Shown here: piece by piece, positions 19,254 to 32,619 of the stretch
Layout: each line of letters opens with the position of its first letter
How positions within the stretch are numbered: position 1 is the first letter of the stretch
DNA from: Acidobacteriota bacterium
Lineage (GTDB): Bacteria; Acidobacteriota; Vicinamibacteria; Vicinamibacterales; UBA2999
Direction: 5' to 3'
Length of the DNA: 32,918 bases
Assembly: GCA_009694735.1 (NCBI GenBank)
Contig: SHUG01000018.1
Coordinates: forward strand, 1 to 32,918
The notes under the pieces: model-generated
The model's database searches: none
What the model saw: the letters and a program-made list of their open reading frames with translations, nothing else
What the model was told of the DNA's origin: nothing
Made by a program: the position numbers and the translations under genes

Positions 19254-20576
19254 ATGATGATGAGGCGTTTGGCAAGCGGTGTCGTGGTGGTGGCCCTGGC
19301 GGCTCTGGTGGCTGCTGGTTGTGCCACCGGCCGCGCCTTCGCGCGTGGCGAGTCGGCGGGGCACGCGGGTGACTGGGAATCGGCGGTCGCCTTCTTCCGC
19401 CAGGCCCTGGATGACGACCCCGATCGGCCCGACTACAAGATCGCGCTGGAGCGGGCGATGACCGCCGCCGCGGCCCTGTACACGGACCGGGGCCGGCAAC
19501 TCGAGGCGGCCGGCCAGCCTGACGAGGCGCTTCGCGCGTACCGCAAAGCGCAGGAATTCGAGCCCTCGAACCGGACGCTGGCCGCCAAATCGGCCGAGCT
19601 CGAACGGTTGTTGCGGGACCGCCTCGAGGCCGCCACGCCGCGGCCCGAGATCGAGAAGATGCGACAGCAGGCGCGCCGCAGCGTCGAAGCGGTGCTCAGC
19701 CCGACCAACCCGGAGCCGTTGATCGTCAACCTGATCAACACCAGCCTGCGCGAGATCCTGAGCTTCATCGGCAACTACAGCGGCATCAACGTCACGTTCG
19801 ATCGCGATTTCCAGGACCGATCGATCACGCTCAAGCTTGAAGGCGTCTCGCTCGAACAGGCGCTGCAACAGATCATGATCTCGAATCAGCTCTTCTACAA
19901 GGTGCTGAACGAACGGACGATCATCGTCGCCGCCGACAGCTCGCAGAAGCGCACGCAGTACGAAGACCAGGTGATTCGCACCTTCTTCATCTCGAATGCC
20001 GACGCGACGGAGATGCAGACCTTGCTCACGGGCCTGATTCGCGTCGCCGGCATGGCGATTCAGCCGCAGATCATCGCCAACAAGACCGCCAACACGGTCA
20101 CCATCCGCGCCACCGGCCCGGTGGTGCAGATCGCGGAGCGCATTCTCGAAGCGAACGACAAGCCGCGCGCCGAGGTGGTCGTCGACGTCACCATTCTCGA
20201 GGTCAGCCGCGAGCGCGCCAAGCGTTACGGGCTCGACCTGGGGAGCTACTCCGCCGCCTTGAATTTCTCGCCGGAGGCGGCGCCCGCCGCCGACGCGAAG
20301 CCGTTCAACCTCAATACCATCTCGCAGGGCGTGAGCACCGCGGACTTCTACCTGTCAGTGCCTTCGGCGGTGGTCCGCTTCCTGGAGACGGATTCGCAAA
20401 CCAAGGTGCTGGCCAAGCCGAACCTGCGGGGTACCGAAGGTCAGAAGTTGACGCTCAACCTCGGTGAAGAGGTGCCCGTCCCAAGCACCACCTTCACCCC
20501 AATTTCACCGGGTCGGTGGGGTCCAACCCTCTCGTCTCGTTCAGCTACCGCCCGATCGGTATCAATGTCGAGATGA
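19254..20576 (+). CDS. pilQ: PilQ/GspD-like secretin, N-terminal part (frameshifted near 20505)
   Basis: Secretins form the outer-membrane gate of pilus and type II systems. This part begins with a lipoprotein-type signal (VAAGC, C23). TPR-like helices follow (about 35-125), then an STN/N0 domain (about 157-228, NLINTSLREILSFIGNYSGI) and an N1-like domain (about 238-310, FFISNADATEMQTLLTGLI). The start of the secretin core shows DVTILEVSRERAKRYGLDLG and TKVLAKPNLRGTEGQKLTLN up to GEEVPVPSTTFTPI. After about residue 418 the frame departs from the family and stops at 20576. The missing core continues in the frame reached by adding one base (next entry), so the two entries are one gene. The ATG at 19254 follows the pilP-like stop by 5 bases. 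Confidence 0.9.
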   Translation: MMMRRLASGVVVVALAALVAAGCATGRAFARGESAGHAGDWESAVAFFRQALDDDPDRPDYKIALERAMTAAAALYTDRGRQLEAAGQPDEALRAYRKAQEFEPSNRTLAAKSAELERLLRDRLEAATPRPEIEKMRQQARRSVEAVLSPTNPEPLIVNLINTSLREILSFIGNYSGINVTFDRDFQDRSITLKLEGVSLEQALQQIMISNQLFYKVLNERTIIVAADSSQKRTQYEDQVIRTFFISNADATEMQTLLTGLIRVAGMAIQPQIIANKTANTVTIRATGPVVQIAERILEANDKPRAEVVVDVTILEVSRERAKRYGLDLGSYSAALNFSPEAAPAADAKPFNLNTISQGVSTADFYLSVPSAVVRFLETDSQTKVLAKPNLRGTEGQKLTLNLGEEVPVPSTTFTPISPGRWGPTLSSRSATARSVSMSR

Positions 20577-21724
20577 CGCCGCGCGTTACCTACGACGGCG
20601 ACGTGATCCTGGAGATCACGGTCGAGAACAGCTCGCGCGGGCAAGACCTGCTGGTCGGCGACCAGAACCTGCCGTCGTTCTTCTCGCGCAAGGTGACGAC
20701 CAAGCTGCGGCTGCGTGATGGCGAGTCGAACCTGTTGGCGGGCCTGCTCCGTGAAGACGAACGTCGGTCGCTACGCGGATTTCCTGGTGTCATGCGATTG
20801 CCGATCGTGAAGCAGCTCTTCTCCGACAACGACAAGAACATCAGGCAGACCGATATCGTCATGTTGCTGACACCGCGCATCGTCCGCACCCACGAACTGC
20901 GGGCGTCTGACCTCAGCCCCATCTACATCGGGACACAGGCCAACATGACGTTGGGAGGACCGCCCGCCGTGATCGGCGGCGACGCTCCACCCGCCACCGG
21001 GGTTATTATCCCGGGCGTGGCACCGTCACCGGCTGCGGCGGCAGGCCAGCCCACGGGTCTTCCACCCGTGGCCGTGACCGGCACTCCGGCGGGGACGAGC
21101 GTGAGGCCGATCGTGCCGCCAGGCAGTTCGCCCATTCCAGGCATGGTCATGGCGCCGTCCGCGCCCGCCGCACCGGCTCCCAGCAACATCGTGGTGTCGC
21201 CGATCGATTTGCCGGTCGTCTCGGCACCGCCGCCAGCGCCTGCGCCGCCGCTACCGCCGACCGCGCCTCCAGCAGCGGCGGTTGCGCCGACGCCCGCGCC
21301 ATCATCGTCAACGCCGGCTCGCGTCACGCTGAGCCCACCGAGTGAAATGCGCATGGGCAGCGGCCCGTACACCGTGCCGATCGCCATCGCCGGTGCGTCG
21401 CGTCTCTCGACGCTGACAATTTCGCTCACCTACAACCCGGCCCTGATGCGGGTTCGCAGCGTGCAGGAGGGCACCTTCATGCGGCAGGGGGGCGTGGCTC
21501 CGGCATTCAGCAGCCAGGTGGACGAGAAGAGCGGTCGCGTCGACATTGTGATCACGCGGCCCGGCGATCAGACCGGCGCATCCACCGCGGGCTTGCTCGC
21601 CGCCCTCCTGGTTGAACCGGTGGCGGCCGGTACCGGTTCGCTCTCGGTGAGCGGTTCGGCCAGTGTGCCCGGCGGCGCCAGCGCACCGCTGCAGTTCCTG
21701 CCAGCCGGGATCACGGTGCGGTAA
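20516..21724 (+). CDS. pilQ: PilQ/GspD-like secretin, C-terminal part, with a cohesin-like domain
   Basis: This is the continuation of the secretin. From SNPLVSFSYRPIGINVEMTPRV onward it has the conserved core: VILEITVENSS, FFSRKVTTKLRLRDGES, LLAGLLREDERRS and TDIVMLLTPRIVR (about 112-124 of this part). A Pro/Ala/Thr/Val-rich linker of about 115 residues follows. A final beta-rich domain (about 266-402) contains TLTISLTYNPALMRVRSVQ and GRVDIVITRPG, the pattern of a cohesin fold. The nominal GTG at 20516 is simply where this frame can open, not a likely natural start. The stop overlaps the first pseudopilin gene by one base (TAATG). Confidence 0.88.
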   Translation: MGSNPLVSFSYRPIGINVEMTPRVTYDGDVILEITVENSSRGQDLLVGDQNLPSFFSRKVTTKLRLRDGESNLLAGLLREDERRSLRGFPGVMRLPIVKQLFSDNDKNIRQTDIVMLLTPRIVRTHELRASDLSPIYIGTQANMTLGGPPAVIGGDAPPATGVIIPGVAPSPAAAAGQPTGLPPVAVTGTPAGTSVRPIVPPGSSPIPGMVMAPSAPAAPAPSNIVVSPIDLPVVSAPPPAPAPPLPPTAPPAAAVAPTPAPSSSTPARVTLSPPSEMRMGSGPYTVPIAIAGASRLSTLTISLTYNPALMRVRSVQEGTFMRQGGVAPAFSSQVDEKSGRVDIVITRPGDQTGASTAGLLAALLVEPVAAGTGSLSVSGSASVPGGASAPLQFLPAGITVR

Positions 21725-22191
21725 TGATGGCGCGCGGGTTCTCCTTCGTCGAATTGCTGGTGGTGACGACCATCGTCCTCATTCTCGCCTCAGCGGTGCA
21801 ACCCCTGGCCAGGGTGACGATTCAGCGGACCCGCGAGGCCGAGTTGCGGCGCGTCCTTCGTGACATGCGGACCGCGATCGACAAGTTCAAGGATGCCGCG
21901 GACTCCGGGCAGATCCCGAGCACCGAGCTGAAGGCCAATAGCGAGGGCTATCCGCCGGATTTGCAGACGCTGGTTGACGGCGTCTCGGTGGCCAACGACG
22001 CGACCGGCCGCAAGCTGAAGTTCCTGCGCCGCATTCCCACCGATCCGACCACCCTTGACGCCGGATGGGGACTGCGGGCTTACCAGGACAAGCCCAATTC
22101 GTCGAGTTGGAGCGGCCAGAACGTTTATGACGTGTATTCCAAGAACCAGGGCACGGCCCTCGACGGCACGAAATACCGCGACTGGGACTGA
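21724..22191 (+). CDS. GspG/type IV pilin-like pseudopilin 1
   Basis: This is a major-pseudopilin-like subunit of 155 residues. It has a four-residue leader (MMAR), a type III signal with cleavage expected in RG/FSFVELLVV, Glu at mature position 5, and a hydrophobic helix of about 20 residues. The C-terminal domain has GspG-like features: YPPDLQTLVDG, RRIPTDPTT, YDVYSKNQGTALDGTKYRDWD. It starts at an ATG overlapping the secretin stop; a second ATG is at 21727. It is a paralogue of the next gene, with which it shares the ALDGTxYxDW ending. A prepilin peptidase must process it, but none is encoded in this window. Confidence 0.9.
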   Translation: MMARGFSFVELLVVTTIVLILASAVQPLARVTIQRTREAELRRVLRDMRTAIDKFKDAADSGQIPSTELKANSEGYPPDLQTLVDGVSVANDATGRKLKFLRRIPTDPTTLDAGWGLRAYQDKPNSSSWSGQNVYDVYSKNQGTALDGTKYRDWD

Positions 22192-22206
22192 CGAGACAGG
22201 GATCAC

Positions 22207-22617
22207 ATGAAGAAGACAGGCTCCCAGTGGGCGCGCGCGCGCGGGTTCACGCTGATCGAAGTGCTGGTCGTCTTGACCCTGATCGTCGTGCTGGCCAGCA
22301 TGGGCATGACGCAGTACCGGAACAGCGTGACGCGGGCCGAAGAAGCCGTGCTCAAGGAAAACTTGTTCCGCATGAACGACGCCATCGACCAGTACTACGC
22401 CGACAAGAACAAGTGGCCGTCAGACCTGGCCGAGCTGTCGTCGGCAGGCTATATCCGCGAAATCCCGATCGACCCGATGACCAAGGCGAAGGACACGTGG
22501 ACGACGACGCAGGCGGAGCCCGACCCGAATAATCCGGCATCGCAGGTCGGCATCTACAGCGTCAAGAGCGGGTCTGACCGAACAGCGCTGGACGGCACGC
22601 GCTACGCGGACTGGTAG
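22207..22617 (+). CDS. GspG/type IV pilin-like pseudopilin 2
   Basis: This is the second major-pseudopilin-like subunit, 136 residues. A leader of 13 residues is rich in Lys/Arg. The cleavage site is RG/FTLIEVLVV, with Glu at mature position 5, followed by the hydrophobic helix. The globular part has the GspG pattern YYADKNKWPSDLAELSSAGYI, IPIDPMTK and GIYSVKSGSDRTALDGTRYADW. AGGGA lies 6-7 bases upstream of ATG 22207. It is the last gene of the compact operon and is followed by a repeat block and a strong hairpin. Confidence 0.92.
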   Translation: MKKTGSQWARARGFTLIEVLVVLTLIVVLASMGMTQYRNSVTRAEEAVLKENLFRMNDAIDQYYADKNKWPSDLAELSSAGYIREIPIDPMTKAKDTWTTTQAEPDPNNPASQVGIYSVKSGSDRTALDGTRYADW

Positions 22618-22621
22618 GGAT

Positions 22622-22649
22622 TCCGGGATCCGGGATCCGGGATCCGGAA
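22622..22649. repeat. 7-bp tandem repeat (TCCGGGA) after the pseudopilin genes
   Basis: Three exact copies of TCCGGGA and a fourth, TCCGGAA, run head to tail. Each junction creates a GGATCC palindrome. The block sits 5 bases after the pseudopilin stop and just before the terminator-like hairpin. It has no coding role. Confidence 0.8.
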
Positions 22650-22653
22650 GACA

Positions 22654-22686
22654 AAGGGCCAGGGTGCGAATTGCACGCTGGCCCTT
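22654..22686. terminator. Hairpin between convergent genes, probable bidirectional terminator
   Basis: AAGGGCCAG (22654-22662) pairs perfectly with CTGGCCCTT (22678-22686). An inner GTGC/GCAC stem closes a GAATT loop, separated from the outer stem by one G-G mismatch. It lies between the end of the pilus operon and the end of the convergent Ig-domain gene. There is no long T-run on the plus side; the minus side continues TTTGTCTTCC, which is somewhat better. Confidence 0.75.
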
Positions 22687-22712
22687 GGTGTATCAGTCGA
22701 AAGCTCTGACTA

Positions 22713-23690
22713 CTACTGTGTGATCAGCTGTCCGGTCGACCTGTTGCCGGCAGAGTCGGTCACGGTCAATGTCAGGATCACGTTTGGGCCGATAGCGGTC
22801 GTCGCAAACGTCCCGCTGCCAGTTCCGTTGTAGAGGGGGTCGCTGACGCCAGGGGCAGTGACGACAACCGACCGGAGGCTAAGGCCAGTTGCAGCACTGA
22901 CGACGACCCTGAAGGTCTTGTTCGCGATGCCGGTGCCGGTCGCTTGATCGAAGGTCGTGATCGTCGGTGCTGTTCCGCGGCCAATTGCTACCTGCGTCGT
23001 GGAGTTGCCGCGTCCACCGCTCTGGTCGGTGACAGTAGCAGTTACCGTATACGTTCCTTCAGCACCGTAGGACTTCGAGAGAGTATTGGCGCTGGAAATC
23101 GCTCCCATGTCGCGGGTGCTACCATCGCCAAAGTCGACCGTCACGTTGGTAATGGGTTGGGGCGGGGTCGGCGCCGTCGTGACCGTGAAGAAGACCGGTA
23201 CCCCGACCGAGCCGCTGTTCGTGGCCGTGGTGATCGAGATGGTCGGATTGACGCGCGTGAGGACAAACGAAATCGACGCGGTACCTCGCTGAGAGTTGAG
23301 GTCGGTCGCCGCAGCCGTCATGGTGTAAGTGCCTGGTGACGTGTAGACATGCGATGCGGACGTGGCACTTGTGCCGCCGAGTGGCTGCTCACCTCTGTTG
23401 TCACCCCAGTTCACAGTGAGGTTCTGGATCGCGGCACCGCCAGTGCTCACCGTCGGAGTGATCGTGCAATTCACCGCGACACCTACGGACTGGGCAGCCG
23501 TGCAAGTCGTAATGGCCACTGTCGGCGCTGCCAGGGCAGTGATCACGACGTTGGCTGTCACGGCCGCGGTGGCACCGGCCGTAGCAACGGTCGCCGTCAC
23601 GGTAGTCGTTTGATTCGTCGTCAGCGAGGTCTGCGCCACGCCGTTTGCATTAGTCTGGGTCGATGGCGAGCCAAGGATGCCCGTGCCTGA
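22713..23690 (-). pseudogene. Downstream half of Ig/PKD-domain lipoprotein gene, after an in-frame TGA
   Basis: This is the same reading frame as the upstream half at 23691-24269, separated from it only by a TGA. It runs for 325 codons without another stop and has no natural-looking start; the first usable GTG is at 23639. It begins with the end of a Big_1-like Ig domain (QTNANGVAQTSLTTNQTTTV). Two PKD-like domains follow, with NLTVNWGDNRGEQ and NVTVDFGDGSTRD, each ending in a SPGTYT or AEGTYT strand. A last beta domain ends TVTDSAGNRSTGQLITQ. Such repeats usually extend surface proteins. If the TGA is a sequencing error, the whole is one 518-residue surface lipoprotein. Confidence 0.75.
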
Positions 23691-24269
23691 TCACGTGCCG
23701 CCGATGGCAAAGGTGACGGGAGCACCTTGAACGGGGGAGCCATTCGTGTCCGCGACGTTCGCGATGATCTGGATGGTGCCGCCGGTCTGCGGAATGTTCG
23801 GCGGTTCGGCGCGAAGGGTGATTCGACTCGCTGCTGCGCCGCCGACCAGAATCGTGAGTGGCGCGCCCGGCGCCGTCGAAGAATTGCCGCTGGTCGTGCT
23901 GCCTCCAGTGGCGGCCGCGCCCGAGTAGGCATTGATACGGACAACGCCGGAAAGGCCGGACGCAAAGAATCGGCTGACGGCCCGACCGTTGACCGTTTGA
24001 GATTCCCGCGGGTCCATTCGGCCAAGATCGGCGCGGAAGACGACTGTCGTACCGTTCTGAACCGCGGTGCCCGCCGACTCCGTGACGGTGGCGGTGATTT
24101 CGGCCGAGCCGTCGATCGGCACGATATTTATGCTGGCGCTCAGCAGAATCGTTGAACCGGTCGGCGAGGTCAGTGGCACTTTGTCGCAGGAGGCAGCGAC
24201 GACCGCTGCGATCACGGCAAAGGCGACCAGGAACGAGCGCGCAGCGTCATTACGGCTAAGCGTGCGCAT
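23691..24269 (-). CDS. Upstream half of Ig-domain surface lipoprotein, ending at a premature TGA
   Basis: These 192 residues start with a lipoprotein signal (AVVAASC, lipid cysteine C28). One Big_1/invasin-like Ig domain follows (about 40-125, INIVPIDGSAEITATVTES and NGTTVVFRADLG). A Ser/Thr/Gly-rich linker leads to a second Ig domain starting at about 155 (ITLRAEPPNIPQTGG), cut short at VTFAIGGT. The TGA at 23691-23693 falls where the family normally reads on into a strand such as SGTG, so the gene looks interrupted. ATG 24269 is preferred to 24341 because it begins the signal peptide. The gene lies between two groups of pilin-type genes but on the opposite strand. Confidence 0.75.
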   Translation of the reverse strand: MRTLSRNDAARSFLVAFAVIAAVVAASCDKVPLTSPTGSTILLSASINIVPIDGSAEITATVTESAGTAVQNGTTVVFRADLGRMDPRESQTVNGRAVSRFFASGLSGVVRINAYSGAAATGGSTTSGNSSTAPGAPLTILVGGAAASRITLRAEPPNIPQTGGTIQIIANVADTNGSPVQGAPVTFAIGGT

Positions 24270-24304
24270 CGAACGCAGGACCAAAAGTTGGAGCGGACGG
24301 AAAG

Positions 24305-24333
24305 GTGACACTGGAAGGCCTGTTAAGGATAAT
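24305..24333 (+). promoter_or_regulatory. Near-consensus sigma-70 promoter abutting the pseudopilin start
   Basis: GTGACA (24305-24310, five of six to TTGACA) and GATAAT (24328-24333, five of six to TATAAT) are separated by exactly 17 bases. The ATG at 24340 lies six bases after the -10 box, so the predicted transcription start falls on or within a base or two of the start codon. Confidence 0.65.
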
Positions 24334-24339
24334 AGACGC

Positions 24340-25056
24340 ATGAAGTTAGCGGGTCAAGGAGGCTATGCGATGGCCGCCCTGCTCGTCGGCATGAGCGTGA
24401 TGGCCGTGCTGCTGGGAGCCTTGCTGCCGCAGTGGACGACGCTGGCGACGCGGGAAAAGGAGCAAGAGCTCGTGTTCCGAGGCAACCAATACGCTCGCGC
24501 GATTGGGCTGTTCCAGCGCAAGTTTGCCAATACGGCACCGCCGACCATCGATGTGCTGGTTGAGCAACGCTTTCTCCGCAAGAAATATAAAGACCCGATT
24601 ACCAACGACGACTTCCAGCCGATCTACGCCAGTCTGGCCCCCCAGGGGCCGAATACGCCGGCTGGCGCTAATCGGCCCGGGCAGCAGGCGAGTGCCAGAC
24701 CGGGCCCCCCTGCCCAACAAACCCCCCAGCCGGGTTCTGGCAATGCCGGCGCCACGAGCGGCGTAGGCATCATCGGGGTCACGTCGAAAAGCACCGAGAC
24801 GTCCCTCAAGCTCTACAACGGCCGCGACAAGTACAACGAGTGGGCGTTCGTCTACGTTCAGACGGCGCAACGCCCTCAAGGGCCGGGCCAAGGCGTGCAG
24901 CCCGGCGCTGGCGGGCCACAGGGCCCCGGGCAGCAGCCCGGTCAACAGCAACGTCCGGGCGGGCCTGGCGGCAGCCCATCAAGTCCCTTTTCGCCGGGTG
25001 CGTCGCAGCCAAATCGCCCGCCGATCCCAGGACAGCCGCGGCCACCGGGCAACTAG
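24340..25056 (+). CDS. Type II secretion/pilin-like protein with a Gly/Pro/Gln-rich tail
   Basis: The 238-residue product has a pilin-type N-terminus. Leader MKLAGQG is followed by GYAMAALLVGMSVMAVLL, a hydrophobic helix with cleavage expected after the second G of QGG. Mature position 5 is Ala, not Glu, as in some minor or tip pseudopilins such as GspK. A conserved-looking segment (about 40-90) contains EQELVFRGNQYARAIGLFQRKF, LVEQRFLRKKYKDPIT. A later segment (about 145-180) contains GVIGVTSKSTETSLK and YNGRDKYNEWAFVYV. Between and after these are Gly/Pro/Gln-rich runs (GPGQQPGQQQRPGGPGG), probably disordered. It lies outside the main operon behind its own promoter and may be a minor subunit of that machine. 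Confidence 0.85.
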   Translation: MKLAGQGGYAMAALLVGMSVMAVLLGALLPQWTTLATREKEQELVFRGNQYARAIGLFQRKFANTAPPTIDVLVEQRFLRKKYKDPITNDDFQPIYASLAPQGPNTPAGANRPGQQASARPGPPAQQTPQPGSGNAGATSGVGIIGVTSKSTETSLKLYNGRDKYNEWAFVYVQTAQRPQGPGQGVQPGAGGPQGPGQQPGQQQRPGGPGGSPSSPFSPGASQPNRPPIPGQPRPPGN

Positions 25057-25059
25057 CGC

Positions 25060-26088
25060 TCAGTCGGAGAGATCCGCCACCACGGCATCGTGAAGCGCGC
25101 GCCGCGCGTCTTGTATCCCCTCGCCGGTCCGCGTGGGATGAACCCGGTTCGACAGCAACACCACATACAAATCCTGCTCGGGATCGATCCACAGCGACGT
25201 GCCCGTGAATCCGGTGTGACCGATCGCGCGGGCGGACAAACTCGTGCCGCATGATGACGCCGGCAGCATGGTGTCCCAGCCGAGCGCGCGCGAACTGCCG
25301 GGCGTCGCGCTCTTGCGCGCGAACGCGGGCAGGGCAGGTGAGGCCAGCCACCAGCGGGCGCACGCGCCGACCGCGGCGGCGGTCCCGAACAGGCCGGCGT
25401 GCCCGGCGACGCCGTCGAGCGCCGCGCAGTTCTCGTCGTGCACCTCGCCGCGCCGCTCGTCGCCGTGAGTGGTGTCCTCGGTGGGCGCGGTGCGCGAGCG
25501 CCAGGTCTCGGGCGGCCGAAACGCGAGCACGACCTCGGGCCCGAGCTCGCGCGATCGCCAGTCATCGAACAGCCGATCGAGCGTCGCCGCGGCCGCGTGC
25601 TCAATCGCAAACCCCAGCAGCATGAAGCCAGGGTCGCTGTAGATCGACTGCGTGCGCGGCAGGTACGCCAGCGGCTCTTCGCCGATCGCCAGCTCGAACG
25701 AGGCGCGGCCGCGGCGATGCTCCCAGTACGGCCGGTGCGCCGGGAGGCCGGAGCAGTGCTCGAGTAGATCCTGGATGGTCACGGGTTGACGCTCGTCGCC
25801 GGTCCACGACGCAATCCAGTGGCGCACGCGATCGTTGGTCCGCATGCGACCGCTGCTCAGTTCGTTCACCATGAGGGCGGTGGTCGCCAGCACCTTGGTG
25901 AGGGATGCGAGATCGTAGATGGTGCCGGGATCGACGCCGCGAGCGCCAGGCCCGTAGCTCAGGGCGCCACGGGCGAGGGTCGCGATCGCCCCGTCCGCAC
26001 GGCCCACCTCAACGATCGCGCCGGGAAAAACGCGGCTGGCGATCGCGCGTTCGAGCACGGTCGCGACGGTCGGAAAGACGTTGGTCAC
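25060..26088 (-). CDS. Serine hydrolase of the beta-lactamase/PBP (S12) fold
   Basis: The 342-residue protein has the three active-site motifs of the class C beta-lactamase / D,D-peptidase superfamily: SLTK (S62, K65), YSD (Y150-D152) in YSDPGFMLLG, and HTG (291-293) in GHTGFTGTSLW. No signal peptide is evident, so it may be cytoplasmic and act on imported muropeptides or other esters/amides rather than on antibiotics. The start is GTG 26088, whose GTGA overlaps the TGA of the symporter gene upstream, a clear sign of translational coupling. The frame is open 40 codons further upstream, but that part lies inside the symporter gene and has no family similarity. The substrate is unknown; the context points to cell-wall salvage. 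Confidence 0.9.
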   Translation of the reverse strand: MTNVFPTVATVLERAIASRVFPGAIVEVGRADGAIATLARGALSYGPGARGVDPGTIYDLASLTKVLATTALMVNELSSGRMRTNDRVRHWIASWTGDERQPVTIQDLLEHCSGLPAHRPYWEHRRGRASFELAIGEEPLAYLPRTQSIYSDPGFMLLGFAIEHAAAATLDRLFDDWRSRELGPEVVLAFRPPETWRSRTAPTEDTTHGDERRGEVHDENCAALDGVAGHAGLFGTAAAVGACARWWLASPALPAFARKSATPGSSRALGWDTMLPASSCGTSLSARAIGHTGFTGTSLWIDPEQDLYVVLLSNRVHPTRTGEGIQDARRALHDAVVADLSD

Positions 26089-27533
26089 GTTCTGGAGGGC
26101 GTCACGGCCGGTCGGGGCATCACCATCGACATCACCAACGCCACGGCGCAGGTCGTGACCGCGCCGATCAACACATACCAGGTGAAGGCCACGGTCGTGC
26201 CCCACCACACGGCCGTCATCACGACCAGCCCAGTCAGCATGCCGGCGAAGGTGTCACGTTCGGTCACCTTCGGGGCGAGTGTGCCGAGCAGGAATGCCCC
26301 GAGTACCGCACCCGACGCAAACGACAACACGGCGAGGCCGGCATCGAGCACCGACCGCTCCATCAGCTGCGCGCCGATGGCGACGGCGACCTGCACGATG
26401 CCCCAGCCGACGGTCGCCTGCTTCGACACGCGCATCTGCGTCGCCTGGTCGGCCGTGGGGTTGACATAGGGCAGGTAGAAATCGCTGACCGTGGTCGCCG
26501 CCATCGCATTGAGCGACGGCGAGAGCGCGGCGGCGACGATGGCAGCGACGATGAAGCCGGCGAGACCGTTCGACAACTCGCTGACCACGAAGATCGGGAG
26601 GATCTGATCCGCGCGCGACAAGGTTTGCGGCACCGGCACGTGCTGGTAATACGCGAACAGCATCACGCCAATCAGCAGGAACAGCACGAACTGCGCGAAC
26701 ACGATGAAACCGCTCAAGATCAGCCCACGCGACGCCTCCTTGGCGCTGCGTGCCGCGAGCAGCCGCTGGACCAGGAACTGATCCGTGCCGTGCGTTGACA
26801 AGGTAAGGGCGACGCCGCCCAGCAGGCCCGCCCAGATCGTGTAGGCCTTGGTCAGGTCGAAGGCGGGGTCGAAGAAGACGAAGCGGCCGGTGTCGTGCCC
26901 GACGCGCACCACTTCCGGCCAGCCGCCGGGAATCCGGTTCAGTAGCGCCATCGCCACCGCCGCGGCGCCGGCGATGTAGACGAACATCTGCACCACGTCG
27001 GTCCAGATCACGGCCGAGATGCCGCCGCGCATGGTGTAGACGATCATCGCCGCGCCCAGCACGATCACCACCGCGGTGACCGGCAGTTGCGTCACGATCG
27101 AGATCACGAGTGCGGTTGTAAACAGGCGAATGCCGTCGGCCAGCGATCGCGTGATCAGGAAGATCACCGCCGCCAGCGTCTTGACCCTGGTGCCGAATCG
27201 TCGCTGCAGCAGCTGGTACGACGTGAATAACTCGCCGCGGAAATACGCGGGGATGAAGAGAATGCTGACCAGCACGCGGCCGATGATGTAACCGATCGCC
27301 AATTGCAGGAACGTCATGTTCCCGCCGTAGGCCTGCGCGGGAATGCCAATGAACGTCAGCGTGCTGGTTTCGGTGGCGACGATCGTGAAACAGATCGCCC
27401 ACCAGGGCACGCTGCGGTCGGTGAGGAAGTAGTCGCGGGTGGTCTTCTGGTATCGCGCGAACCACGATCCGAAGGCGGTGATGGCGAGCAGGTAGACGCC
27501 GATGACGGCGTAGTCGACCGCGGACAGCGACAT
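26085..27533 (-). CDS. Sodium/solute symporter (SSS family), candidate amino-sugar importer
   Basis: This inner-membrane cation-coupled importer has 482 residues and about 13 hydrophobic segments. SSS features are the start VDYAVIGVYLLAITAFG, TTRDYFLTDRSVPWWAICFTIVATETSTLTFIG (TM2 region, in pieces), GGISAVIWTDVVQMFVY and LLGGVALTLSTHGTDQFLVQRLLAARS. The SSS family covers sugars, sialic acid, amino acids and more, so the substrate is not readable from sequence. The neighbours (S12 hydrolase, glycoside hydrolase, amino-sugar kinase, NagB, MurQ) suggest MurNAc, anhydroMurNAc or GlcNAc. In Tannerella forsythia an SSS-type MurT works with a kinase and MurQ. The gene follows the glycoside hydrolase gene after 12 bases and overlaps the next gene by 4. 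Confidence 0.92.
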   Translation of the reverse strand: MSLSAVDYAVIGVYLLAITAFGSWFARYQKTTRDYFLTDRSVPWWAICFTIVATETSTLTFIGIPAQAYGGNMTFLQLAIGYIIGRVLVSILFIPAYFRGELFTSYQLLQRRFGTRVKTLAAVIFLITRSLADGIRLFTTALVISIVTQLPVTAVVIVLGAAMIVYTMRGGISAVIWTDVVQMFVYIAGAAAVAMALLNRIPGGWPEVVRVGHDTGRFVFFDPAFDLTKAYTIWAGLLGGVALTLSTHGTDQFLVQRLLAARSAKEASRGLILSGFIVFAQFVLFLLIGVMLFAYYQHVPVPQTLSRADQILPIFVVSELSNGLAGFIVAAIVAAALSPSLNAMAATTVSDFYLPYVNPTADQATQMRVSKQATVGWGIVQVAVAIGAQLMERSVLDAGLAVLSFASGAVLGAFLLGTLAPKVTERDTFAGMLTGLVVMTAVWWGTTVAFTWYVLIGAVTTCAVALVMSMVMPRPAVTPSRT

Positions 27534-27545
27534 GGCTGGGGCAGT

Positions 27546-28892
27546 TTAGTGCGATCCGGCTCCGAATGCGGCACGGCCCAGCTCGCTCAGGGTCCCGGCG
27601 CTGTTCGGAGGCGCGGTCAGGGCGTCGTATGAAAACAGGATGATGCCGGCGGCCCCAAGCTTCCTGGCCGCGGCGATGCGCTGCAGGGTCTGCGCCGGGG
27701 TGAGGTGATAGGCGCCGATGCCCGCCCACACCGGCACTTCGCCGGCGTAGTCGCGCGCGGCCGTCACCTGTTGCTGGAACACGCCCGCGTCCGTCGTGTA
27801 CGCCATCGGACAGAGCACGTCGAGCAGCGATTGGTCGAGCCACGACCGCCAGTCCTGCAGTCGCGACTCGGTGGCCAGCTTCGCGTCGGGCACGATCGCG
27901 GCACTGACGATGGTGCCGGGCCGCGCCGCCTTCACCGCCGTGCGCACCTTCACGACGAGCTCCGTGAGTCCCGAACGGCGGAACTCATCCCAGCGATCGG
28001 CGAACAGGTTGGGATACGCCGCCGGATCGAGGACTTCGCGCGCGGCCGCCTCGCGCCGTTCCTTCTCGGTCAATCCGGGAAGGATGGTCGTCTTGAACAG
28101 TTCGATCGCCGACGGGCTGTAGTCGAAGCTTTCACTGGGGAACCGGACGTAGTCGAGGTGGACGCCATCGACCGCGTACTTCCGCACCAGTTCGCCGATC
28201 ACCGCCGCCACATGCGCTTGCGCGCCGGGATGGACCGGTGAGGTGTACAGGCCCTCCACCTCCGCCGAATGCGCCCGCGTCCAGCGCGCCAGCCGGCCGA
28301 TGTAGGCCGGGCTGCGCACGTCGACCTTCTTCATTTCAGCAGCCAGTTCGCGCGGGACCATCAACCACTCCGGCGCGCGATAAATCACGTGCTCGCGCGA
28401 CGCTGGCAGACTCACCGAACTCGAGACCAGGTTGACGGCCACCCACGCGTGCACCTTGATCCCGGCCGCGTGCGCCTCGTCCAGGACGGTGGTGAGTGGA
28501 TCGAACGCCGGCTTCGCTGCGAGTTCTGAGGCCCGCGGTTCGAGCGTGCCGCGGTAATACGAATCGCCACGTCCGCGCACCTGCACGATCAACGTGTTGA
28601 AGCCGCCGGCTGCGGCGGCCCGCACCATCTGAACAATGGCCTCAGAGGAGGTGAGGGTGGTCCGCGTCACCCAGAGTGCGCGTGTCTCCACCTTCGCCTC
28701 AGGGGCTACGGTGGACAGGTCGACCTTCGCCTCAGGGGAGAAGGTGGGCAGGTGCTCCGGTGCCACGGCAGTGGTGCTAAACGTAGACGCGGCGATCACC
28801 GCGGCAAACGTCAACCAGAAGGTCGATCGCCGGACCAGGCGCGCCGCGCCGACAGCGGGGCGCGCCACCACGGGGGGAGTGGCGCAAAGCAT
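27546..28892 (-). CDS. GHL10/DUF187-type glycoside hydrolase-like exported protein
   Basis: The 448-residue protein has a long basic N-terminus, a hydrophobic segment (about 24-45, STFWLTFAAVIAAS) acting as signal or anchor, and a TIM-barrel-like domain (about 70-440). Family signatures are ETRALWVTRTTL (69-80), FNTLIVQVRGRGDSYY, GIKVHAWVAVN, and VDGVHLDYVRFPSE (241-254). The family (YngK, DUF187) is thought to act on peptidoglycan-related or other polysaccharides; activity is rarely proven. Residues 52-68 hold a duplicated SPEAKVDLSTV/APEAKVE unit encoded by a 33-bp direct repeat. ATG 28892 is used; a GTG at 28901 is possible. It is the first gene of a three-gene minus-strand unit (hydrolase, symporter, S12 hydrolase) divergent from the kinase. 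Confidence 0.88.
   Translation of the reverse strand: MLCATPPVVARPAVGAARLVRRSTFWLTFAAVIAASTFSTTAVAPEHLPTFSPEAKVDLSTVAPEAKVETRALWVTRTTLTSSEAIVQMVRAAAAGGFNTLIVQVRGRGDSYYRGTLEPRASELAAKPAFDPLTTVLDEAHAAGIKVHAWVAVNLVSSSVSLPASREHVIYRAPEWLMVPRELAAEMKKVDVRSPAYIGRLARWTRAHSAEVEGLYTSPVHPGAQAHVAAVIGELVRKYAVDGVHLDYVRFPSESFDYSPSAIELFKTTILPGLTEKERREAAAREVLDPAAYPNLFADRWDEFRRSGLTELVVKVRTAVKAARPGTIVSAAIVPDAKLATESRLQDWRSWLDQSLLDVLCPMAYTTDAGVFQQQVTAARDYAGEVPVWAGIGAYHLTPAQTLQRIAAARKLGAAGIILFSYDALTAPPNSAGTLSELGRAAFGAGSH
28690..28754. repeat. 33-bp direct repeat within the glycoside hydrolase gene
   Basis: ACCTTCGCCTCAGGGG occurs at 28690-28705 and again at 28723-28738, a period of 33 bases or 11 codons. The flanks are also similar (GGTGGACAGGT and GGTGGGCAGGT). 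It resembles the element upstream of secA at 2546-2570. It adds an Ala/Glu/Lys/Val-rich spacer between the signal sequence and the catalytic domain. Confidence 0.7.
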
Positions 28893-28959
28893 GGAGAACA
28901 CAATAATTTAGCACGCCTCCCATCCGGCGGGGCCACGGTCCGGGTTGTAAGCTAGATGG

Positions 28960-29937
28960 ATGCATGTGCTGGGGATCGATGCCGGGGGCACCAAGACCAC
29001 GGCCCTGCTGGCCGATGCCGACGGCCGGGTCGTGGGTGAGGGCCGCGCCGGCGGCGCTAATCTTCAGGCGCACGGCGAGCTCGAGGTCGAAAAAGTCCTT
29101 CACCACGTCATCGATCTCGCCGTCGAAGGCCATCCGGCGCCGGCGGCGGTCTGCCTGGGATTGGCCGGCGTCGACCGCGAAGGCGATGGAGAGGTGATCC
29201 GCGGCATCATGCGGCGCCTGGGCTTCCGGGCTCACACCGTGATCGTCAACGACGCGCTGATTGCGCTCGTGGCGGGCGTGCCTCTTCGTGAGGGCTCCTC
29301 CGAAGTCAGCCAGGGCCTGGTCCTCATTTCCGGCACGGGATCGATCGCCTATGGCGTGAACCAGCATGGCCTCGCGGCTCGGGCCGGCGGGTGGGGCACG
29401 TCGCTCGGCGATGAAGGGTCCGGCTATTGGATTGGCCGGCGCGCGCTGAAGGCGGTGGCTCGCGACGCTGACGGCCGCGGTCCGCACACTCGGCTCACCC
29501 CGCTCGTGCTCGCGCATTTTTCGCTGTCGCGTCCGGAGCAGCTGGTGTCAGAAATCTACGATCAGGCCCAGGGCAAACGCGCGATCGCGTCGCTTGGTGC
29601 CACCGTCGAGCAAGCGCGGGCCGAAGGCGACATCGTGGCGACCGAGATCATGCGCCAGGCCGCCGACGAACTGACCCTGGCCGCCGCCTCGGTGATCGCC
29701 AGGCTCGACATGCGCGGCGAACAGTTTCCGATCCTGCTGTCCGGTGGCATGATCCGGAGCGCGCACTGGCTGGCCGCCGAGGTCACCGCGCGGCTGGCCG
29801 AAGTGGCCCCGCGCAGCGTGGTCTCCGCTCTTGATGGTGAACCGGTCCTGGGCGCCGTGCGCCTGGCCCTGGCGGAAGCCCGTGGCGGCGTCCGCGTGCC
29901 TCCTTACGTCGATGCCGTCCGTGCGACACCTCAGTGA
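28960..29937 (+). CDS. BadF/BcrA-type amino-sugar kinase (GlcNAc or MurNAc kinase)
   Basis: The 325-residue product is an ASKHA-fold ATP-dependent kinase of the N-acetylglucosamine kinase group. Visible motifs are the phosphate-1 loop GIDAGGTKTT (5-14), VNDA (97-100), the phosphate-2 loop ISGTGSIAYG (123-132), GGWGTSLGDEGSGYWIG (143-159) and a late LLSGGMI adenosine motif. Members phosphorylate GlcNAc at position 6, and some (MurK of Clostridium and Tannerella) also or mainly phosphorylate MurNAc. With nagB overlapping downstream by 4 bases and murQ converging, MurNAc/GlcNAc kinase is the best reading. No strong Shine-Dalgarno is seen before ATG 28960. The 5' region (58-67 bases) is shared with the divergent glycoside hydrolase gene. 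Confidence 0.9.
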   Translation: MHVLGIDAGGTKTTALLADADGRVVGEGRAGGANLQAHGELEVEKVLHHVIDLAVEGHPAPAAVCLGLAGVDREGDGEVIRGIMRRLGFRAHTVIVNDALIALVAGVPLREGSSEVSQGLVLISGTGSIAYGVNQHGLAARAGGWGTSLGDEGSGYWIGRRALKAVARDADGRGPHTRLTPLVLAHFSLSRPEQLVSEIYDQAQGKRAIASLGATVEQARAEGDIVATEIMRQAADELTLAAASVIARLDMRGEQFPILLSGGMIRSAHWLAAEVTARLAEVAPRSVVSALDGEPVLGAVRLALAEARGGVRVPPYVDAVRATPQ

Positions 29938-30665
29938 AGATTGAACGATTTGACAACGACGATGTGCTGGCGGCGACGCTCGCCACTCGCCTGATCGCAG
30001 CCATTTCCCTCAAACCGCGCATTGTCCTCGGCCTGCCCACGGGCCGCACGCCAGTGGCCCTCTATCGAGAGGTCCGTTCGCGCAGTCACCGCGGCCATGT
30101 TGACTGGTCGCAGGTGCGCACGTTCAACCTCGACGAGTTCGTCGGGCTGGGCGCCGGGGATGCGGGTAGTTACCGCTCGTACATGCAGGCCGAGTTGTTC
30201 GACCACGTTCGCATCGAGCCGCTCAACGTGGGCATGCTCGACGGACGGGCCGCCAGCCTGGCAGCCGAGTGCGCGCGCTACGAGCGTGCGATCGAACGGG
30301 CCGGCGGCCTCGACATCCAGATCCTGGGCATTGGGGCCAACGGTCACATTGGCTTCAACGAGCCGGCCGATGCGCTGGATGCAAAGACGCACGTCGCGGC
30401 CCTGCAAGGCGAGACGCGCCGCGCCAACGCCGGATTGTTTGGCGGCGAGCTCGGCCGCGTGCCGACGCACGCGCTGTCGATGGGCATGGCGACCATTCTC
30501 CGCGCGCAGGAAATTGTCCTGATGGCCACCGGTGCCGAGAAAAGCGAGGCGGTGGCGGGGATGATCGATGGCCCCCTCACGACGCGGTTGCCAGCGTCGT
30601 TTCTGCAGGTGCATCCGCGGGTCACGGTGATGCTTGACCGCGGGGCGGCCCGTCGCCTCACCTAG
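29934..30665 (+). CDS. nagB: Glucosamine-6-phosphate deaminase (NagB)
   Basis: NagB converts glucosamine-6-phosphate to fructose-6-phosphate and ammonia, the last step that feeds amino sugars into glycolysis. The 243-residue product has the phosphosugar loop LGLPTGRTPVALYRE (32-46), VRTFNLDEFVGL with general base D67, and GIGANGHIGFNEP (132-144) with H138 and E143. The position of E. coli D141 is Asn here. It is shorter than E. coli NagB (266), with a reduced C-terminus and so perhaps without the allosteric site. The start is GTG 29934 inside the kinase stop (GTGA). Its stop region overlaps the convergent murQ end by 4 bases. Confidence 0.94.
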   Translation: MKIERFDNDDVLAATLATRLIAAISLKPRIVLGLPTGRTPVALYREVRSRSHRGHVDWSQVRTFNLDEFVGLGAGDAGSYRSYMQAELFDHVRIEPLNVGMLDGRAASLAAECARYERAIERAGGLDIQILGIGANGHIGFNEPADALDAKTHVAALQGETRRANAGLFGGELGRVPTHALSMGMATILRAQEIVLMATGAEKSEAVAGMIDGPLTTRLPASFLQVHPRVTVMLDRGAARRLT

Positions 30666-31615
30666 AGAACGCCGCCGATTAACGCGCGCAGCCGAGGCTC
30701 GATGTCTTCGCCGATCGCCTCGCGGATCAGATCGTCGGACTTGCGCAGCCGGGTGATGGACTTGGCATAGGTCAGGCCGGTCTTCTGCATCACGATGGCG
30801 ATCTTGACGTTCCACTTCGCCTTCTTTAGCAGCTTCTCGGCTTCCTCGTAGTCCAGGTCGGTCACGATGTGGACGATGCGGCGGGCGCGGTCGCGGAGCT
30901 TTTCGGACCCGAGGGCGTTCACGTCGACCATCAGGTTGCCGTAGGTCTTGCCGATCAGGACCATCGCCGAGGTCGTCAGCATGTTGAGGACGATCTTGGT
31001 GGCGGTGCCAGCCTTGAGGCGCGTGGAGCCGGCGATGATCTCCGGACCGACGGCCGGCGCGATGGTGAGGTCGACGAATGCCTGCATCTCGTTTCGCGGG
31101 TCGCAGGTCACAAAGACGACGCGTGAGCCCGCCTTGCGGGCGCTGGTCAGGGCGCCGCGCACGAACGGCGTCATGCCGCTGGCCGAGACGCCAATGACGA
31201 CATCCTTCTTGGTGGGGTCGAGCCGCGTGATGGCGCGGGCGCCCTCTTCGTAATTGTCTTCGGACCCTTCCTTGGCGCGGATGATGGCGTTCTTGCCGCC
31301 CGCCATGATGCCTTGCACCAGCAAGGGGTTGGTGCCGAAGGTCGGTGGCATCTCCGCCGACTCGACGACGCCCAACCGGCCGCTGGTGCCGGCGCCGACG
31401 AAGACCAGGCGGCCGCCCTTGCGGAGGGCTTTCGCGCAGATGTCAGCGCCAAGCGCGATGCGGTCGCGCTCTTTCTGCACCGCGGCGAGCATGCGGCGGT
31501 CTTCGGCCAGCATGAGATCGACAATGCCACCGGCCTCGAGCTTGTCGATGTTCAGCGAAGCGGGGTTAATGGCTTCGGTCGGGAGCGACTGCCATCGCGA
31601 ACGGGTTGAAGCCAC
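30662..31615 (-). CDS. murQ: N-acetylmuramic acid 6-phosphate etherase (MurQ)
   Basis: MurQ removes the lactyl ether from MurNAc-6-phosphate, giving GlcNAc-6-phosphate, in cell-wall recycling. The 317-residue product shows the SIS-domain core: LPTEAINPASLNID, GGRLVFVGAGTSGRLGVVESAEMPPTFG (in pieces, 67-94) with candidate catalytic E88, EGSEDN (116-121), GVSASGMTPFV, and the GSTRLKAGTATKIVLNMLTT signature. It is slightly longer than E. coli MurQ (298). There is no in-frame ATG near the start. GTG 31615 places the conserved LPTEAIN near the N-terminus; a TTG at 31678 would add 21 unconserved residues. Neither has a good Shine-Dalgarno. It lies opposite to the kinase-nagB pair. Confidence 0.95.
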   Translation of the reverse strand: MASTRSRWQSLPTEAINPASLNIDKLEAGGIVDLMLAEDRRMLAAVQKERDRIALGADICAKALRKGGRLVFVGAGTSGRLGVVESAEMPPTFGTNPLLVQGIMAGGKNAIIRAKEGSEDNYEEGARAITRLDPTKKDVVIGVSASGMTPFVRGALTSARKAGSRVVFVTCDPRNEMQAFVDLTIAPAVGPEIIAGSTRLKAGTATKIVLNMLTTSAMVLIGKTYGNLMVDVNALGSEKLRDRARRIVHIVTDLDYEEAEKLLKKAKWNVKIAIVMQKTGLTYAKSITRLRKSDDLIREAIGEDIEPRLRALIGGVL

Positions 31616-31701
31616 TAGCGTGTCTTTGTCTCGACCACGGGAAAAGCTGATGCTAGTCCCCGGTGTTCCTGCTGTCAATGACGCATCGGCTTAGATGTGG
31701 C

Positions 31702-31731: not shown

Positions 31732-32619
31732 GTGAGCGCGCTGGTCGACGCCTATTTATCTCACCTGGCCGTGGAGCGCCGCCTGTCGCCCAACACGGTG
31801 GAGAGCTACGGCCGCGACCTGTCCCACCTCCAGCAGTTTGCCGCCGGTCTGGACCGGCCGGTCGCGGATCTCGACCGCCGCGGTCTCGAAGCGCTAGTTC
31901 GCCAGTTGATGGGCGAAGGCCGGTCGCCAACGTCGGTCGCGCGCGCCGTGGCGTGCTTTCGTGGTTTCTACCGGTTCCTGGTGGTGTCGGGTCACCGCAT
32001 CGTCAACCCGGCCGACGACCTGCGCGCGCCGCGGGCCTGGAAGACGCTGCCTAAGTTCCTGTCGGTCGATGAGGTCGATCAGTTGCTGGCGGCGCCCGAC
32101 ACGACGGTACCGCGCGGCCTTCGCGACCGGGCGCTGATCGAGGTGCTCTACGCCACCGGCCTGCGTGTGTCGGAGTTGATCAACCTGAAGCCACAAGACG
32201 TGAACCTCGAGAGCGGCTACCTCACCACCACCGGGAAGGGACGCAAGCAACGGCTGGTGCCGCTCGGCGACGAGGCGGCATCCTGGGTGGTGCGGTATCT
32301 CCAGGAGTCGCGCCCGGCGTTGCTCAAGAAGCGACCGTCGCCGCGGCTGTTCGTGAACGCGCGCGGCGGGACGGGGCTGACACGGGTGGGGTTCTGGAAG
32401 ATCCTGACGGCCTACGGCCGGCAATGCGGAATGACCGCGTCGCTCAGCCCGCACGTCCTACGGCATTCGTTCGCGACGCATCTGCTCGACCGCGGCGCCG
32501 ACCTACGGGCCATCCAGATGATGCTTGGCCACAGCGATCTGTCGACCACTCAGATCTATACGCATGTTCTGGAAGCGCGGCTGCGGGCGGTGTACGACAA
32601 GTTTCATCCGCGTTCCTGA
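31732..32619 (+). CDS. xerD: Tyrosine recombinase XerD
   Basis: XerD-type recombinases resolve chromosome dimers at dif together with XerC. The 295-residue product has the SAM-like N-terminal core-binding domain (about 1-85, LAVERRLSPNTVESYGRDL) and the catalytic domain with the full set of residues: R145 (ATGLRVSEL), K169 (GKGRKQRLVPLG), H241 and R244 (LSPHVLRHSFATHLL), H267 (MMLGHSDLSTTQIYTH) and nucleophile Y276. The length and the Xer-type HVLRHSFATHLLDRGADLRAIQ stretch (in pieces) argue for a housekeeping Xer protein rather than a phage or integron integrase. It starts at GTG 31732. XerC and XerD are hard to separate by eye, so the letter is tentative. Confidence 0.93.
   Translation: MSALVDAYLSHLAVERRLSPNTVESYGRDLSHLQQFAAGLDRPVADLDRRGLEALVRQLMGEGRSPTSVARAVACFRGFYRFLVVSGHRIVNPADDLRAPRAWKTLPKFLSVDEVDQLLAAPDTTVPRGLRDRALIEVLYATGLRVSELINLKPQDVNLESGYLTTTGKGRKQRLVPLGDEAASWVVRYLQESRPALLKKRPSPRLFVNARGGTGLTRVGFWKILTAYGRQCGMTASLSPHVLRHSFATHLLDRGADLRAIQMMLGHSDLSTTQIYTHVLEARLRAVYDKFHPRS

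Follow-up and report, generated by a model that had tools for sequence, protein, structure and literature searches.

How is MurNAc from the cell wall taken up and broken down when the genes for its catabolism lie beside a sodium symporter and not a PTS transporter, and what do two hydrolases encoded in the same gene group contribute? The question is raised by a contig of 32,918 nucleotides from an Acidobacteriota bacterium (the whole stretch is referred to here as the window), part of which an earlier note had read as an amino-sugar salvage cluster of six genes. All six open reading frames were found to belong to the families named there, five of them by Pfam matches, and MurQ and NagB score over curated cut-offs. 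The features are as follows.

25060..26088, minus strand: S12 (beta-lactamase/PBP4B-like) serine hydrolase, 342 aa (PF00144, 2.6e-40)
26085..27533, minus strand: SSS/SSF sodium:solute symporter (PF00474, 9.8e-37; TIGR00813, over cut-off)
27546..28901, minus strand: GHL10 putative glycan hydrolase, DigH-like (PF02638, 1.9e-33)
28960..29937, plus strand: BadF/NagK-type sugar kinase, MurK-like (PF01869, 1.9e-38)
29934..30665, plus strand: NagB-like glucosamine-6-phosphate deaminase (PF01182, Glucosamine_iso, 5.1e-23; TIGR00502)
30662..31678, start perhaps at 31615, minus strand: MurQ, MurNAc-6-phosphate etherase (TIGR00274; NF003915)
31732..32619, plus strand: XerD-type tyrosine recombinase, a conserved neighbour beyond murQ (PF00589, 4e-48)

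We consider it highly probable that the cluster as a whole, leaving aside the step assigned below to the S12 hydrolase, is a pathway for the uptake and catabolism of MurNAc. It is not one operon, because the GHL10, symporter and S12 genes lie on the minus strand, murK and nagB on the plus strand and murQ on the minus strand, i.e., murK-nagB is divergent from the GHL10 gene, and murQ is convergent with nagB. At two junctions the genes overlap as GTGA: between murK and nagB, and between the symporter and S12 genes, where the likely S12 start codon (GTG at 26088) overlaps the TGA of the symporter, which confirms the translational coupling that had been noticed before. The XerD-type recombinase is not thought to be part of the pathway. 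Secretin-like and pseudopilin-like frames beside the cluster (window 19254-25056) point to a group of genes for type II secretion or a type IV pilus; three relatives (L033, L045 and L047) have frames of this kind after the cluster.

Whether the six genes stay together in related genomes had been put forward as a check, and in public genomes of relatives holding murQ, nagB and murK the order (xerD)-murQ-nagB-murK-(GHL10)-SSS-S12 is identical at 20 of 20 loci, so that the arrangement cannot be put down to chance. GHL10 is encoded at 11 of these syntenic loci and is to be regarded as accessory, since it is missing from the other nine. The xerD gene is seen at 18 of the 20 (the contigs of the other two stop at murQ) and near the symporter at 18 of 80 homologous loci. 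Almost all records of the related loci are MAGs of Acidobacteriota; the few labelled Cyanobacteria, Acidimicrobiia or Arcobacter are taken to be mislabelled bins. Of 119 related genomes, 70 encode the kinase.

The catabolic enzymes are assigned with differing margins. MurQ reaches 332 bits with TIGR00274 (cut-off 302) and 356 bits with NF003915 (cut-off 168); its frame is open to 31678, and a GTG at 31615 is a plausible start, the one that the earlier note had implied. NagB passes TIGR00502 marginally (239.2 bits, cut-off 236.9), and its best-scoring model, NF001684, is under cut-off (267.6 versus 326). The solved protein that the kinase matches best, along almost its whole length, is the MurNAc/GlcNAc kinase in PDB entry 8zo3 (1.4e-52 with the single sequence, 1.7e-82 with a profile), which from its molecule name we take to be Clostridium acetobutylicum MurK. 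With the same profile, the match is at 1e-31 for human NagK and at 1.7e-10 for Tannerella MurK, so that the kinase is much closer to the dual-specificity MurNAc/GlcNAc type, the Clostridium acetobutylicum type, than to its Tannerella counterpart. We infer that it is a candidate ATP-dependent MurNAc/GlcNAc 6-kinase; given its closeness to the dual-specificity type, GlcNAc may be a second substrate.

This resemblance to NagK and to a dual-specificity kinase, together with the coupling of nagB to the kinase gene, could also be expected of a cluster for the utilisation of chitin-derived GlcNAc, in which the symporter would carry GlcNAc and MurQ would be incidental. We regard such an explanation as improbable: MurQ, which by family definition acts on MurNAc-6-phosphate, is kept in the conserved order, and NamZ and S12 genes recur beside members of the symporter family across Acidobacteriota.

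The symporter itself (PF00474, and over the TIGR00813 cut-off) has the sialic acid symporter SiaT (5nv9) as its nearest solved structure. Around 80 homologous symporters, an S12 gene lies nearby in 52 cases, NamZ in 27, MurK in 25 and MurQ in 21. No rival catabolic pathway recurs among the 28 of these 80 loci that have no S12 gene nearby, several of which are short contigs, and a consistent link of the symporter to another pathway was not seen among the 80. In one relative (L073) the order is murK-murQ-SSS-GH3-[S12-NamZ], the last two being domains of one protein; at other loci the neighbour of the symporter is an S66 LD-carboxypeptidase or, in L069 and similar Bryobacterales loci, an amino acid permease, whose gene follows that of the symporter directly and is followed in turn by a convergent gene for S12-NamZ. 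Two unusual frames were also seen: one of 1328 aa that holds symporter, S12 and NamZ domains (L106:8974-12960), either a true fusion or the result of a missing stop, and one of 841 aa in which the symporter runs on into an HlyD-type membrane-fusion domain (L060:2041-4566).

In the symporter alignment, the SiaT carboxylate ligands S60 and T63 are conserved as S57 and T60, and arginines 86, 129 and 136 are invariant, a pattern that would fit an acidic sugar as cargo and is compatible with it without being proof. Because the carboxylate-binding Arg135 of SiaT is replaced by Ala in all 80 symporters, however, the argument from the SiaT site is only suggestive. The exact TM3 motif RxLADGxRLF, considered as a signature of the family, is held in just 30 of the 80 homologues and was dropped. 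Taken with the families of its neighbours, the kinase match and the linkage to MurK, MurQ, NamZ and S12, these features lead us to propose that the symporter imports MurNAc or MurNAc-peptides, and they support the previously suggested sequence of SSS import, ATP-dependent phosphorylation and passage through MurQ and NagB.

Partner enzymes of such a pathway are encoded elsewhere in the genome, which is about 86% complete, so that the absence of any single gene carries little weight. Both nagA and nagZ, which the earlier note had suggested might lie outside the cluster, were found there. NagA scores over the cut-off of TIGR00221 on another contig (PF01979 is too broad for picking it out, and TIGR00221 was used instead), and one GH3 protein over the cut-off of the beta-N-acetylhexosaminidase model is a cytosolic-looking NagZ. 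The nagZ gene lies side by side with genes for an S66 LD-carboxypeptidase and an Mpl-like ligase (contig C90), the ligase just under its cut-off (388.0 versus 388.7). There are two NamZ proteins. One has no leader, and the other is fused to an S12 domain with a hydrophobic leader; the fusion (834 aa; contig C54, L131:7860-10364) is encoded apart from the cluster. No PTS_EIIC match was found in the roughly 86%-complete genome, although a PTS enzyme I is present, and the description of the cluster as having no PTS is correct. AmpG was likewise not found in this genome and is patchy in relatives, being over cut-off in 15 of 60 genomes.

AnmK, which had been considered as a further gene that might lie elsewhere, was found neither in this genome nor in any of the 60 genomes searched, while the positive controls matched. 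The cargo had been put as free MurNAc or an anhydro-sugar; the first half of this stands, and the second is disfavoured because of the absence of AnmK here and in all 60 genomes. A role for the cluster in handling anhydro-MurNAc released by lytic transglycosylases is accordingly very improbable, the known ring-opening kinase being missing, and the one point in its favour is that a distant Streptomyces homologue of the symporter adjoins anmK, a linkage that also counts towards the MurNAc pathway as a whole. This homologue (36% identity; Streptomyces sp. SAT1 plasmid, L141:7962-11018, beside an annotated anhydro-MurNAc kinase gene) came from a plasmid search for outside relatives, most of whose hits were distant symporters; two were examined, and the neighbouring gene is anmK in one case and a dihydrodipicolinate synthase family gene in the other.

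The earlier note had called the roles of the GHL10 and S12 proteins unclear. This was overstated, since for each of them a counterpart is known from murein metabolism: DigH for the former and, for the latter, E. coli PBP4B, encoded beside murP. Their roles are less obscure for that reason. The GHL10 protein (116.4 bits to PF02638, cut-off 27.9) is the sole match to its family in the genome. It shares 26% identity with E. coli DigH (pair E-value, 4e-18), and its N-terminal segment is hydrophobic, as would suit an exported protein. DigH is reported to work on denuded glycans during cell separation (PMC12288456); by analogy with this member of its Pfam family, we propose that GHL10 would cut peptide-free glycan strands.

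From its likely GTG start at 26088, the S12 gene encodes 342 aa with no signal peptide. The open frame reaches upstream to 26208, but this extension was rejected, as it runs into the coding sequence of the symporter and supplies no signal peptide. The protein scores 139 bits to PF00144 (cut-off 27). Its best NCBIfam model is PBP4B (NF002968), at 105 bits and under the cut-off of 385, and we regard it as related to PBP4B without classing it as such. Its identity is 31% with E. coli YfeW and 34% with the S12 domain of the S12-NamZ fusion of its own genome, and the SxxK, YxD and HxG motifs (S62, K65, Y150, D152, H291 and G293) are invariant or nearly so in 20 sequences. In the window, and in 24 relatives where the S12 gene comes immediately after that of the symporter, S12 is predicted to start at the symporter stop codon or close to it, and 20 of the 24 show an overlap of exactly 4 nt. 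None of these proteins was seen to have a strongly hydrophobic N-terminus (best 12-residue mean hydropathy, 1.0-2.1). At five other Acidobacteriota loci (L081, L099, L100, L108 and L111) the S12 protein has a hydrophobic leader (2.3-2.9), and four of the five are fused to NamZ. Leaders were called by a simple hydropathy measure, with some start codons chosen, not proven. As far as this measure goes, the S12 protein beside the symporter here seems to stay inside the cell, unlike the leader-bearing S12 proteins at other Acidobacteriota symporters, and this contrast in probable location is the most surprising thing about the locus. That the S12 protein lacks a signal peptide had gone unnoticed in the earlier note.

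A leaderless hydrolase coupled to an importer suggests, but does not prove, that amide cleavage follows import, and we infer that the S12 protein is a candidate cytosolic MurNAc-peptide amidase. It is possible, though on the unlikely side, that in this group of Acidobacteriota the symporter imports peptide-linked MurNAc and that the co-transcribed S12 protein cuts off the peptide in the cytosol, an AmpG/AmpD-like step carried out by unrelated families. A further-reaching version, likewise possible but on the unlikely side, is that the cargo is muropeptides (MurNAc-peptide or GlcNAc-MurNAc-peptide) rather than mainly free MurNAc, with S12 as a cytosolic amidase replacing AmpD and with NagZ, the LD-carboxypeptidase and the Mpl-like ligase recycling sugar and peptide inside. 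The leaderless S12 proteins starting at or near the symporter stop, the grouping of the nagZ, S66 and Mpl-like genes and the distribution of AmpG all point this way. However, we know of no SSS protein that carries peptides as large as muropeptides, the missing AmpG is only suggestive at this level of genome completeness, and AmpG coexists with MurK in other members of the family.

The structural evidence is equivocal on this point as well. A search with the AlphaFold model of S12, which is a confident one (mean pLDDT, 89.9), matched esterases, acyltransferases and class C beta-lactamases (AmpC) alike, which weakens the case for an amidase and would equally suit an esterase or other acyl hydrolase that is merely co-transcribed in an otherwise correct MurNAc pathway and acts outside cell-wall sugar use. 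We think this rather unlikely, in view of the sequence likeness to PBP4B and to the NamZ-fused S12 domain and of the linkage between S12 and symporter, which recurs across distant Acidobacteriota.

In the MurNAc pathway that we favour, secreted enzymes (GHL10 from this locus and the S12-NamZ fusion encoded elsewhere) would trim murein fragments in the envelope, and the SSS protein would take up MurNAc, possibly still bearing peptide, with sodium. Inside the cell, the leaderless S12 hydrolase would strip any remaining peptide, MurK would phosphorylate MurNAc with ATP, MurQ would remove the lactyl ether to give GlcNAc-6-phosphate, and NagA and NagB would pass this product into central metabolism.

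Searches of the literature on NamZ with AmiE and on MurNAc recycling in Acidobacteria found no description of this cluster, but the type of pathway is already known. In Tannerella forsythia, a transporter reported to be in the sodium symporter superfamily (MurT), an ATP-dependent MurNAc kinase and MurQ are encoded together with no PTS (PMC5790795), which makes the analogy drawn earlier with murT-murK-murQ apt; it holds for MurNAc, with the symporters alike at the superfamily level, and nagB, S12 and GHL10 are additions here. E. coli murQ-murP-yfeW likewise sets MurQ and an S12/PBP4B-type protein beside a MurNAc transporter, but MurP belongs to the PTS and phosphorylates its sugar as it enters, a task that would fall here to symporter and kinase. 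The Bacillus subtilis cluster murQ-murR-murP-amiE-nagZ-ybbC(namZ), in which amiE encodes a MurNAc-L-Ala amidase (PMC5061867), has a similar set of activities, and the order at the L073 locus may be set beside it; it differs in its PTS transporter and extracellular AmiE and NagZ, as opposed to the symporter, kinase and leaderless S12 protein found here. What is new is that the S12 gene, which encodes a protein with no apparent leader, shares 4 nt with the end of the symporter gene.

Acidobacteriota are plentiful in soil, and few of them have been cultured. A conserved route for murein sugar such as the one described here suggests that they consume cell-wall material, or recycle it, with no PTS involved. 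In the symporter family, together with the S12 and NamZ proteins linked to it, the route also offers testable candidates for transport of MurNAc and for a murein amidase that would act in the cytosol and come from an unexpected family.
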